DNA of 64,000 nt from Streptomyces sp. NBC_00490. Its GTDB lineage: Bacteria; Actinomycetota; Actinomycetes; Streptomycetales; Streptomycetaceae. The notes under the pieces were generated by a model that saw only the letters and a program-made list of their open reading frames with translations, was not told the origin of the DNA and did no database searches. This document shows positions 46,886 through 49,807 of this stretch, one piece after another; within the stretch, counting starts at the first letter, position 1; every line of letters begins with the position of its first letter. The stretch is taken from assembly GCF_036013645.1 (NCBI RefSeq), contig NZ_CP107869.1:2418001-2482000 (forward strand). Direction: 5' to 3'. The position numbers were made by a program, and so were the translations under genes.

Positions 46886-47922
46886 TTCGCACCTTCCTTC
46901 ACCAGCACGGAGACGGGCTCCTGGCCCACGACGTCGATCTGAAGGCCCTGTTCGCGCAGGAAGCCGATCGGCACGACGTTGTCCTCGTAGCGGCCGGGCA
47001 GTTCGATGCGCATCCGGCCGACCTGGAGACCGCCGACGGTGTCAATGGCGGCGCCGAGGATCGAGATGTCGATGTTGTACGTGCGCGAGAGCTGGGAGAT
47101 GACCGGCTGGGTCGCGGCCTCGCCGTGGAAGGTGACGTCGATGACGGTGCGGTCGTCGCCGGTGGCCTCGCCGCCGACCGGGAAGAGCGCGGTGGCGAGT
47201 TCGGAGCCGGGGGTGGCGAGGAGTTCGCTGACGGTGCCGGATTCGACGATGCGGCCGTTCTCCATGAGGGCGGCGGAGTCGCAGATCGACTTCACCACGT
47301 CCATCTCGTGGGTGATGAGCAGGACGGTCAGGCCCAGCTGCCGGTTCAGGTCGCGCAGCAGCTGGAGGATCGAGCGGGTGGTCTCCGGGTCGAGGGCGCT
47401 GGTGGCCTCGTCGGAGAGGAGGACCTTGGGGTCGCCGGCCAGGGCTCGGGCGATGCCGACGCGCTGCTTCTGTCCGCCGGAGAGCTGGGCGGGGTAGGCC
47501 TTGGCCTTGTCGGAGAGTCCGACGAGGTCGAGGAGTTCGAGCGCCTTGCGGGAGCGGTCCTTGCCGGACGTGCCGAGGATCTCCAGCGGCAGCTCGACGT
47601 TGTCCTGGACGGTCCGGGAGGACAGCAGGTTGAAGTGCTGGAAGACCATGCCGATACGGCTGCGGGCGCGGCGCAGTTCGCGGCCGGCCCGCGGACCGCG
47701 GCCCGCGAGGGCGGTGAGGTCCTGGCCGGCGACGGTGACCGTGCCGGCGGTGGGCTTCTCCAGCAGGTTGACGCAGCGGATGAGCGAGGACTTGCCAGCG
47801 CCGGACTGGCCGATGACGCCGTAGACCTCGCCTTCGCGGACGTGGAGATCGACGCCGTCCAAGGCGGTGACCTCACGGCCGCGGGAGCGGTAGACCTTGG
47901 TCAGGCCCGAGGTGGTGATCAC
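46882..47922 (-). CDS. metN: Methionine ABC transporter ATPase MetN
   Basis: 346 residues. Walker A GQSGAGKSSLIR, Q-loop, signature LSGGQKQRVGIARALAGDPK, Walker B VLLSDEATSALDPETT and H-loop LLITHEMDVV occupy residues 1–245. The C-terminal part (about 260–346) is the NIL ACT-like domain (VIDVTFHGEAATQPVISQLS), which binds methionine and inhibits transport when the inside concentration is high. Start 47922 (VITTSGLTKVY) has GGAA six bases upstream; the GTG at 47937 is the alternative. First protein gene of the operon, downstream of a Cys/Met leader ORF. Confidence 0.94.
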   Translation of the reverse strand: MITTSGLTKVYRSRGREVTALDGVDLHVREGEVYGVIGQSGAGKSSLIRCVNLLEKPTAGTVTVAGQDLTALAGRGPRAGRELRRARSRIGMVFQHFNLLSSRTVQDNVELPLEILGTSGKDRSRKALELLDLVGLSDKAKAYPAQLSGGQKQRVGIARALAGDPKVLLSDEATSALDPETTRSILQLLRDLNRQLGLTVLLITHEMDVVKSICDSAALMENGRIVESGTVSELLATPGSELATALFPVGGEATGDDRTVIDVTFHGEAATQPVISQLSRTYNIDISILGAAIDTVGGLQVGRMRIELPGRYEDNVVPIGFLREQGLQIDVVGQEPVSVLVKEGAK

Positions 47923-48129
47923 GTGGGTTTCCGTCACTGTCAGGGGCAGGGCGTGGGTGTGCCCTGGCGGGTGCATTCGGTCGGGAACGCGGCACGGTTC
48001 TCGTGCGGTGGCACAGGAGCCGGGGAGAACATGTGCGCGGGGCGGCGTCGGTCACGTACGGCATTCAGCGCACGGACATGCCACGGCGTCTCGCTTCGGG
48101 GCGCGAGCTCGGGGTGGTGCGGGGGCCCT

Positions 48130-48216
48130 CTAGAAGGCGCACATTCGACACATACAGCGAGCACCGGGCGTCATGGTCGCCTCGGTCGCAAGGGTGCGGC
48201 TGCTCGTCGTGGTCAT
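48130..48216 (-). CDS. Cys/Met-rich leader peptide upstream of metNIQQ (putative attenuator, apparently leaderless)
   Basis: A 28-codon frame from ATG 48216 to TAG 48130. It is Thr/Ser/Ala-rich at first and ends RCMCRMCAF, with three Cys and two Met codons in six positions. A -35-like TTGTCA and a -10-like TACTCA with a 17-base spacer end five bases before the ATG, so the transcript probably starts at or next to the start codon (leaderless). About 205 bases separate the stop from metN. Cys-rich leaderless ORFs acting as cysteine-responsive attenuators of sulphur operons are described in mycobacteria; by analogy ribosome stalling here would report Cys (and Met) supply. Conservation not tested. 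Confidence 0.7.
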   Translation of the reverse strand: MTTTSSRTLATEATMTPGARCMCRMCAF

Positions 48217-48220
48217 GGAA

Positions 48221-48249
48221 TGAGTAAAGCAGATCTACGGTGCTGACAA
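48221..48249 (-). promoter_or_regulatory. Promoter of the leader ORF and metNIQQ
   Basis: On the minus strand TTGTCA (48249–48244), 17-base spacer, TACTCA (48226–48221), then four bases to the ATG at 48216. The -35 box overlaps the T-run of the HAD-gene terminator. No SAM riboswitch core (GGCAAC-type) was seen in 47923–48289. Confidence 0.6.
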
Positions 48250-48280
48250 AACGCCGCTGTCCGCATGCCGGACAGCGGCG
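48248..48280 (-). terminator. Intrinsic terminator of the HAD phosphatase gene
   Basis: CGCCGCTGTCCG (48252–48263) pairs with CGGACAGCGGCG (48269–48280) around CATGC, and TTTT follows on the minus strand. It lies ten bases after the HAD stop and directly before the met leader promoter. Confidence 0.9.
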
Positions 48281-48289
48281 GACAGGGGG

Positions 48290-48940
48290 TCAGGGGCGGA
48301 CGGAGATCTCCACTTCCCCGTCGGTGACCAGGGCCGACAAGGCCGACAGGTCGTCGACGACGAGGTCCGCGTCGAGTTCGTGGGCCTGGTGGGTTGTGGC
48401 CAATGCCACGGTGATCATCCCGGCGGCTCGACCGGCCCTCAAGCCCGCGGGGGCGTCCTCGAAGACCACGCAGCGCTCCGGGTCGACGCCGAGTGCGCGG
48501 GCGGCGAGGAGATAGGGCTCGGGGTCGGGCTTGCCGCGGGTGACGTCCTCGGCGGCGACGAGGGTCTTGGGCAGGATGCCGACGGCGTCCAGCCGGGCCT
48601 CGGCGAGGCGCCGGGTGGCGGAGGTGACGACGGCCCAGCGGTCGGCGGGCAGGGAGGCGAGGAACGCCTTCGTCCCGGGCAGCAACCGCACGCCGCCGTT
48701 CGGCACGTCCTCCACCTCCAGCTTCTCGATCCGCGCGACCGCCTCCGGCACGACCTCGACGGGCAGCAGATCGGCGGCTATCTCGGCAGCCGTACGACCG
48801 TGCAGCTCGACCCGCCCGAACTCCTCGGCCGTGATCCCGTACTCCCCGGCCCACTGCCGCCAGCAGCGGTCGACCGAGGCGAGGGAGGAGACGAGGGTGC
48901 CGTCGTTGTCGAAGAGGAGGGCTTGAGCGTGGATCGTCAT
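48290..48940 (-). CDS. HAD-superfamily sugar/phosphoglycolate-type phosphatase
   Basis: 216 residues. Motif I is LLFDNDGTLV (DxD), motif II AVVTSAT, the motif III Lys region DVTRGKPDPEPYLLAARALG and motif IV CVVFEDAPAGLRAGRAAGM; the cap is the small helical type of the HAD I (β-phosphoglucomutase/DOG-phosphatase) group. It dephosphorylates a small sugar phosphate or similar; substrate unknown. ATG start at 48940. It ends ten bases before a strong intrinsic terminator and is separate from the met operon. Confidence 0.92.
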   Translation of the reverse strand: MTIHAQALLFDNDGTLVSSLASVDRCWRQWAGEYGITAEEFGRVELHGRTAAEIAADLLPVEVVPEAVARIEKLEVEDVPNGGVRLLPGTKAFLASLPADRWAVVTSATRRLAEARLDAVGILPKTLVAAEDVTRGKPDPEPYLLAARALGVDPERCVVFEDAPAGLRAGRAAGMITVALATTHQAHELDADLVVDDLSALSALVTDGEVEISVRP

Positions 48941-49029
48941 GGTCCAGACCCTACGGGGCCGCGGGAGCCTGATCGGGACGGGCCGGGGTCGCCCGCATCA
49001 GGGCTTTCGGGCCGTAATAGGGTCGGCGC

Positions 49030-49389
49030 ATGCTTGATGCCCTGACGCTTGTGACCGGCGTCGCCGCGCTGTTGCTCGCCGCGTGGTGCGGCTGGGCGGC
49101 CTATCGCGATGAGCCGACGAAGGACTGGCACTTCATCGGGATGGGTGTGGTGTCGCTGCTGGCGCTTGTGCAGCTGGTGGTCGGGATCGTGCAGCTGGCG
49201 CGGGGCGAGAAGCCGGAGCAGGGGACGACGATCTTCGTGGCGTATCTGCTGGGCGCGTTCGCCTGCGTTCCGGCCGCGGGGCTCATGTCGCTGTCGGAGC
49301 GCTCGAAGTGGGGCTCGGTGACGGCTGCCGCCGGCGCCGTGGTGCTGGCCGTTCTCGAGGTACGGCTCTATGACATCTGGGGAGGCTGA
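49030..49389 (+). CDS. Integral membrane protein, four helices
   Basis: 119 residues, four membrane segments (LTLVTGVAALLLAAWCGWAA; FIGMGVVSLLALVQLVVGIV; IFVAYLLGAFACVPAAGLMS; VTAAAGAVVLAVLEVRLYDI). The short loops carry DEPTKDW and ERSKWGS. ATG at 49030. The next gene starts two bases after its stop, so the two membrane proteins are probably co-expressed. Conserved in streptomycetes; function unknown. Confidence 0.82.
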   Translation: MLDALTLVTGVAALLLAAWCGWAAYRDEPTKDWHFIGMGVVSLLALVQLVVGIVQLARGEKPEQGTTIFVAYLLGAFACVPAAGLMSLSERSKWGSVTAAAGAVVLAVLEVRLYDIWGG

Positions 49390-49390
49390 G

Positions 49391-49807
49391 GTGACCGTGA
49401 CGGAGGGCGAGTCGGGGAAGAACCGATTGGTCAGCGGTCCTGGCACGCTGCTGGTGTGGCTGTACGGCGTGATGGTCGTCGGCGCCGTGTCGCGTTCGAT
49501 CTACCAGATCGCGACCGAGTTCGACCGGGCGCCGCTCGCCTACTCCCTGTCCGCCCTTGCGGGCCTGGTCTACGGCTTCATCACCTACACGCTGGTGCGG
49601 GGCGGGGAGACCGCCCGCAGGGCGGCGCTGGTGTGCTGCGCCGCCGAGCTGGTGGGCGTGCTGACGGTGGGCACCTGGACCCTGCTGGACCCGTCGGCGT
49701 TCCCCGACGCGACCGTCTGGTCGGACTACGGCATGGGGTATGTCTTCATCCCCGTACTGCTGCCGCTGTCGGCCATCTACTGGCTCCGTAAGGCGCGGAC
49801 CGTCTGA
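49391..49807 (+). CDS. Integral membrane protein, four helices (partner of the preceding gene)
   Basis: 138 residues. The GTG at 49391 (VTVTEGESGKNRL) has GGAGG five bases upstream, which decides it against an ATG at 49370 that would overlap the previous gene. Four helices follow (GTLLVWLYGVMVVGAVSRSI; YSLSALAGLVYGFITYTLVR; AALVCCAAELVGVLTVGTWT; YVFIPVLLPLSAIYWLRKA). Function unknown; topology and pairing suggest a two-component membrane complex, which is inference. It converges with the GNAT gene, ten bases between stops. Confidence 0.82.
   Translation: MTVTEGESGKNRLVSGPGTLLVWLYGVMVVGAVSRSIYQIATEFDRAPLAYSLSALAGLVYGFITYTLVRGGETARRAALVCCAAELVGVLTVGTWTLLDPSAFPDATVWSDYGMGYVFIPVLLPLSAIYWLRKARTV

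Follow-up and report, generated by a model that had tools for sequence, protein, structure and literature searches.

The window, by which we mean the whole stretch of 64,000 nucleotides of Streptomyces sp. NBC_00490 that was analysed, carries on its minus strand an operon with the gene order MetN, MetI, MetQ/NlpA, MetQ/NlpA, preceded by a short leader ORF (Table 1). Read along that strand, the locus consists of TTTACT, CATTCC, the ATG, 28 codons, a spacer of 207 nt, and then metN, metI, metQ, and metQ. The ORF described in the initial annotation is present at its place, and the hexapeptide Cys-Met-Cys-Arg-Met-Cys, which had been said to end it, is found there, though Ala and Phe codons still precede the stop. 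We took GTG 47922 as the likely start of metN, GTGATCACC being kept in the orthologs shown in the alignment; with this start the gap counted from the leader stop is 207 nt, where about 205 had been given. The longest metN ORF opens at the in-frame ATG 47976, and automatic annotation may choose this longer form.

Table 1. Positions of the leader, its predicted RNA elements, and the metNIQQ genes in the window
Feature	Positions	Strand	Basis
Palindrome GTCCGGCATGCGGAC, candidate regulator site, centred 50 nt upstream of the leader ATG	48273-48259	-	
-10 element TTTACT, 6 nt before the leader ATG; predicted transcript start 48216	48228-48223	-	
Leader ORF (metL ortholog), 28 codons, ATG start, MTTTSSRTLATEATMTPGARCMCRMCAF	48216-48130	-	window ORF; published S. 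lividans ortholog
Predicted three-way junction inside the ORF (ORF bases 8-62)	48209-48155	-	conservation, pairing, RNAalifold
P1, nt 8-15 with 55-62	48209-48202 with 48162-48155	-	
P2, nt 19-22 with 27-30	48198-48195 with 48190-48187	-	
P3, nt 31-39 with 47-54, one bulged A	48186-48178 with 48170-48163	-	
Cys-Met-Cys-Arg-Met-Cys, putative sensing tail (leader codons 21-26)	48156-48139	-	
C-rich spacer, 207 nt, C 44.4%, G 27.1%	48129-47923	-	
Hairpin P5, CTCGC-GCCCCGAA-GCGAG, downstream of the leader stop	48107-48090	-	
metN, likely start GTG 47922	47922-46882	-	ORF, profile match, ortholog comparison
metI	46885-46160	-	
metQ/nlpA-type lipoprotein, copy 1	46129-45245	-	
metQ/nlpA-type lipoprotein, copy 2	45214-44387	-	

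The leader was compared in 169 distinct sequences, most of them taken from among the top matches to the peptide of the window; a filter kept those with an Arg-Met motif and with a hexamer resembling a -10 element 5-9 nt upstream of the ATG. Five of 178 loci fell out of this filter: two of them have the leader (L004 and L168), one is cut (L167), and two are distant MetN homologs without it (L177 and L178). The -10 hexamer was TTTACT in 162 leaders, TATAGT in 4, TTTAAT in 2, and TTCACT in 1, so that the element initially placed at TACTCA, 4 nt before the ATG, had been misplaced by two bases. It lies 6 nt before the ATG in 66 leaders and 7 nt in 103, which makes the AUG the predicted transcript start; for the present strain, a leaderless start at the leader AUG is predicted from this promoter spacing.

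At an E value of at most 0.1, 282 of the 295 genomes searched in the genus had a match to the leader peptide. Among the 13 misses, six genomes (G022, G068, G103, G134, G169, G257) have no MetN at E ≤ 1e-90, two (G008, G074) have metN at a contig end, and five (G137, G144, G145, G159, and G226, the last being locus L171) carry a diverged leader, for example MTGASSHHQAPETGTLSGARCPRRMCAR. A chance ORF is rejected by this conservation and by the accounting for the misses. A base-shuffle control yielded three leaderless-type ORFs of 15-45 codons, none with three Cys in the last eight codons, but its size does not allow a rate to be estimated. Across the order, 283 of the 293 genomes drawn matched at E ≤ 1, weak and possibly chance matches included. 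Twelve of 80 loci were checked individually: the leader was present at ten Streptomyces loci and in Kitasatospora phosalacinea, and the Brevibacterium ravenspurgense locus was without it. In another family of the same order (f3), the four metN loci that were fetched were preceded by peptides such as MIDTQSSRTSAATKAPRMMCGCMPSCRMCSC.

We also searched with an RNA model for which only sequences of the window's family were used. Within the genus, 18 of 19 genomes had a strong match to it (E below 1e-16), lying by coordinates before metN in 17; the exceptions were G001, where the match sits on a contig end without metN, and the missed G008, where metN is at a contig end. One genome (G002) has two copies, each beside a metN copy of equal score. 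In a further family of the class (f19), the model matched in three of nine genomes, each time just before metN (E values of 5.5e-9, 1.3e-7, and 1.1e-5), with no convincing match in the six others searched. None of 11 f3 genomes gave a match below E 0.05, and the structure of the f3 leaders therefore rests on single-sequence folds. A candidate ORF with at least two Cys was listed at 16 of 18 f19 loci and not at the other two. By eye, a second short ORF of the MNCPADTLVLRRLSHLPFHPGTR or MTLSPLPDLILRRITHLPFPPGTR type recurs at many of the f19 loci L209 to L226 between the Cys ORF and metN, and is also seen in L223 and L225, which list no Cys ORF; the one that was tested had no NCBIfam match. A second ORF in Streptomyces, ending about 11 nt before metN, was dropped after inspection by eye because lineages with CAGCGACGG lack its stop.

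The length of the ORF is 28 codons in 147 of the 169 leaders and 26, 27, 29, 30, 31, 32, or 38 codons in the others, with the tail in frame throughout, it being understood that out-of-frame tails would fail the filter and that the five loci filtered out are accounted for above. All leaders contain at least two Cys (two, three, four, and five in 25, 112, 18, and 14 leaders, respectively), and all contain at least one Met besides the initiator, which the filter had demanded as part of Arg-Met. Among the 28-codon leaders, Cys21 is kept in 144 of 147 and Cys23 in 145, codon 26 is Arg instead of Cys in 21, Met25 is fixed, and codon 22 is Met in 137. Candidate f19 leaders include L226, which has Cys but no tail Met, and a group with repeated Arg-Met-Cys, such as L212. 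The initial annotation had made its proposal depend on the tail being found in orthologous leaders; it is kept there, and the ORF that precedes metNIQQ, of leaderless type and with Cys and Met in its tail, is indeed conserved and looks translated. Judged by these comparisons, the ORF is a real, widely conserved leader.

Several synonymous sites in it are frozen: CGA24 and GGT18 in 147 of 147 28-codon leaders, and TGT21 and TGT23 in 141 of 147 each, while the amino acids themselves vary at codons 6, 8, 9, 14, and 15. This is explained in large part by a predicted fold of the ORF into a three-way junction made of helices P1, P2, and P3 (Table 1). In an alignment of 89 distinct 28-codon ORFs, the mean column entropy was 0.085 bits at the 40 paired positions versus 0.72 at the 15 unpaired ones, a contrast matched by none of 54 shifted and none of 20,000 random masks; the variable bases lie mainly in the junction loops and in one joint. 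Codon 24 (48147-48145, minus strand) is surprising in a high-GC genome, since Arg is encoded there by CGA in every 28-codon leader and neither P1-P3 nor P5 explains it.

Covariation was assessed in 18 leaders hand-picked mostly for divergence. Pairing was kept in 94.6% of the pair cells, and nine cells were changed on both sides, versus 2.3 in shuffles. These fall in five pairs, of which P2 has two and P1, P3, and P5 have one each, although a control slid by -1 also gave five double-change pairs, with 7 cells, while just 31% of its cells pair. There was no excess of further pair types over shuffles in the same set (462 of 500). RNAalifold returned P1-P3 unprompted from the 18 leaders, less two pairs, and preferred a helix formed by the tail over P5; applied to 158 leaders it gave a poor consensus from which P1-P3 was absent. 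In single-sequence folds of L172 and of f3 and f19 leaders, the ORF start pairs with the tail region using other letters and with mixed stability. Stability was modest overall: the mean z over 34 leaders was -1.49, with 18 at -1.5 or lower and two positive (L239 and L165). In the window the fold of the ORF is weak (z -0.68, its stability being reached by 50 of 200 shuffles), and P1 has one A:C mismatch. Synonymous recodings were as stable over nt 1-66 in 68 of 500 cases for the window and in 7 of 500 for the genus consensus.

Downstream of the stop, GGGCCCC is followed by hairpin P5, whose core CGCCCCGAAGCG is present in 157 of the 169 leaders. In place of P5, RNAalifold proposed a helix that the tail forms with one arm of P5. 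A switch between the two was not adopted, despite 94.3% of the pair cells of this helix holding: its double changes were near those of shuffles (37 and 54 of 500 reach them), and in a partition function over 160 leaders the best tail pair had a mean probability of 0.11, versus 0.82 for P5. The mean pairing of P5 was 0.74 when a ribosome was modelled on the first Cys of the tail and 0.94 when it stood at the stop.

A terminator scan found no intrinsic terminator in the spacer between leader and metN in the window. More generally, the hairpin with U-tract of a classical attenuator was not found between the leader ORF and metN, a T5 run occurring in only one of 163 spacers of at least 150 nt, and a classical terminator attenuator was rejected on this ground. 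These 163 spacers are rich in C (C 44.6%, G 28.1%; C above G in all 163). The excess of C over G in the window's spacer is at the 98th percentile of equal-length stretches of the window, but the metN gene itself contains a more C-skewed 60-nt stretch than the spacer does (20 versus 16), so C-richness is not unique to the spacer. Such spacers would suit Rho, without this being proof of its action.

Taken together, the conservation, the cysteine core, and the RNA fold suggest that the leader itself serves to sense sulfur amino acids. The reading that we prefer, to which we give a probability of about 65%, is a ribosome-mediated attenuator that senses cysteine and probably methionine too, ribosome stalling and the amino-acid response being inferred. 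It agrees with the leaderless start seen by RNA-seq for the S. lividans ortholog (PMC8079986) and with the joint rise of metN, metI, and metQ with genes of cysteine biosynthesis in S. coelicolor under oxidative stress (PMC4991794), although the latter report ascribes this induction to SenR. Transcription would start at the AUG and the leader ORF would be translated. When Cys-tRNA, and probably Met-tRNA, is scarce, the ribosome would pause at codons 21-26 and cover the 3' strand of P1, the outer helix, which ends at the Cys/Met tail; the junction would then stay open and expression of metNIQQ would rise. With plentiful cysteine, the ribosome would reach the stop and P1-P3 would refold behind it. 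The refolded junction may impede the loading of further ribosomes at the 5' AUG, and the C-rich spacer, then uncovered, would be exposed to Rho-type termination or adopt a repressive fold near metN. The output step would be either Rho-dependent transcription or metN translation. Reverse transsulfuration leads from methionine to cysteine. Imported methionine could thus feed cysteine, which would make a cysteine sensor on a methionine importer sensible. A further-reaching proposal, which we put forward only tentatively, is that some 130 nt combine a codon sensor with a conserved RNA machine: the junction would reclose behind the ribosome only if the Cys/Met codons are cleared, block reloading of the AUG, and expose the spacer to Rho, so defining a terminator-free class of attenuators before metN in several actinobacterial families.

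The alternative that survives best, a possible one though we would not bet on it, differs from the attenuator just described only in the output step. It is translation attenuation of the kind reported for the polycysteine ORFs of mycobacteria, and supposes that the free tail (UGUCGAAUGUGCG) pairs with a stretch just before the metN ribosome-binding site (CGCGCACUCGACA) and represses metN translation, and that a stalled ribosome masks the tail and frees metN. Both segments are much conserved, in 112 of 169 leaders nothing pairs with the pre-RBS block better than the tail does, and the duplex averages -20.2 kcal/mol versus -15.3 with a shuffled partner, but this mean is reached by 7.3% of shuffles. 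The pairing is moreover absent by eye from f19 leaders, and where the tail changes to UGCCGA (L006, L011, L100, L126) the change is uncompensated, only L163 looking compensated. In the window the duplex is broken (-13.8, with 31 of 238 other positions pairing better), since the pre-RBS block (47950-47923, minus strand), GCGCACTCGACAGTGACGGAA in most leaders, is altered there to CTGCCCCTGACAGTGACGGAA. Because the window breaks the pairing, we keep sequestration of the RBS as a rival and not as the main story.

We find it rather doubtful that a DNA-binding regulator, acting at the -50 palindrome or as SenR, dominates through the promoter and leaves the leader ORF a secondary role. The GTCC-N7-GGAC palindrome, with a LysR-like T-N11-A spacing, looks like a regulator site. 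It is present in 160 of the 169 leaders, in 153 of these centred 49-52 nt before the ATG; according to the terminator scan, the copy in the window also forms the centre of a terminator-like stem (48280-48252) that follows the upstream HAD gene. In S. coelicolor under oxidative stress, metN, metI, and metQ rose 5.24-, 3.51-, and 2.26-fold together with cysteine-biosynthesis genes, which the report of this work (PMC4991794) ascribes to SenR; there, induction of metNIQ depends on HbpS-SenS-SenR, and a SenR site is predicted 31 nt before SCO1559. That site is close to where metN begins, within DNA that would be transcribed as spacer, and a promoter site explains neither the frame nor the tail nor the RNA conservation. 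Control at the promoter and control by the leader can also coexist.

It is unlikely that Arg-Met-Cys acts as an arrest peptide, halting the ribosome from within the exit tunnel in response to a small molecule such as Met or SAM and not through codon starvation. Arg-Met is present in 147 of 147 28-codon leaders, although the filter favoured it, and f19 candidates such as L212 have Arg-Met-Cys repeats in which a different Arg codon is used. Against this, the motif stands at the very end of the peptide, and the CGA codon is as fixed as the arginine that it encodes, which indicates a role of the RNA or the codon as well. Known riboswitches were rejected, as Rfam families (SAM, Streptomyces-metH, Streptomyces-metK, and others) gave no match at E ≤ 1 in positions 47000-49500 of the window and none at the gathering cut-off in six orthologous loci. 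Least probable of all is a riboswitch whose junction would bind a metabolite, the ORF being translated only incidentally: its junction bases are more conserved than several amino acids, but it would have to accommodate the in-frame length changes, the Cys tail, the missing Rfam match, loops that vary freely, and a translating ribosome that would unfold the junction.

If the attenuator reading is true, the leader, which nearly every checkable metN-bearing genome of the genus contains, would tie the import of methionine to the supply of cysteine, and the locus would allow attenuation that needs no intrinsic terminator to be studied in high-GC bacteria. The metN leader has no match in NCBIfam or Rfam. 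As far as searches of the open-licence literature show, the Cys core, the RNA fold, and the reach across genomes are new beyond what is in print.

The initial annotation knew of no description of such control for this operon. The existence of the leader is in print, and the surprise is limited accordingly, since the S. lividans TK24 ortholog has been published as metL (SLIV_29928; Droste et al. 2021, PMC8079986), leaderless by RNA-seq and proposed as an attenuator of metNIQ. The two share the operon, a clearly homologous peptide (MSTTSDRTPATEATTTPGARCMCRRMCAF), and a position directly before metN; the available part of that report likewise gives no clear terminator, mentioning hairpins with termination left unclear, along with the attenuator label and the leaderless start. 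It stresses methionines and threonines, whereas our analysis moves attention to cysteine, and as available it concerns one strain and gives neither a fold of the RNA nor its spread nor any covariation. PMC4895711 has leaderless transcripts of S. coelicolor, but mentions neither metN nor attenuation in its main text as available, and no other description of the metN leader was found in the open-licence literature searched. Seliverstov et al. 2005 (PMC1262725) predicted leader peptides with runs of Cys near the stop, in Mycobacterium and P. acnes ahead of cys operons and in B. longum ahead of cbs. These resemble the metN leader in being actinobacterial, in having their Cys near the stop, and in lacking a clear terminator, Rho being suggested there too (PMC1262725); in the first of its three parts, that paper does not name Streptomyces metN.

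As in trpL-type attenuators, the metN leader contains codons for an amino acid that the operon supplies, but unlike them it has no hairpin and U-tract before the gene. It gives no match to the NCBIfam profile NF042934 (cis_reg_atten) and is not among the 19 places found with it in its own genome. Ten of these places (L314 to L321) are over the cut-off, and L315, L318, L320, and L321 stand before genes that by eye look sulfur-related, so that the strain appears to possess another class of leader peptides for sulfur genes. The NF042934 peptides are short like the metN leader, with Cys at or near the end in seven of the eight that were read, but differ from it by an HVDL-type motif.

The parallel offered by the initial annotation was with mycobacteria, whose leaderless polycysteine ORFs, described by Canestrari et al. 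in 2020, are reportedly cysteine-responsive. They are taken up in papers that cite this work (PMC9031893, PMC13236596). Like them, the metN leader is a short leaderless ORF, as predicted, with Cys codons near its end and a sulfur operon behind it. It differs in that its Cys codons are interleaved with Met and Arg (CMCRMC) instead of forming a contiguous run, that the gene which follows encodes a methionine importer, that the body of the ORF is predicted to be a structured RNA, and that the spacer measures about 200 nt.
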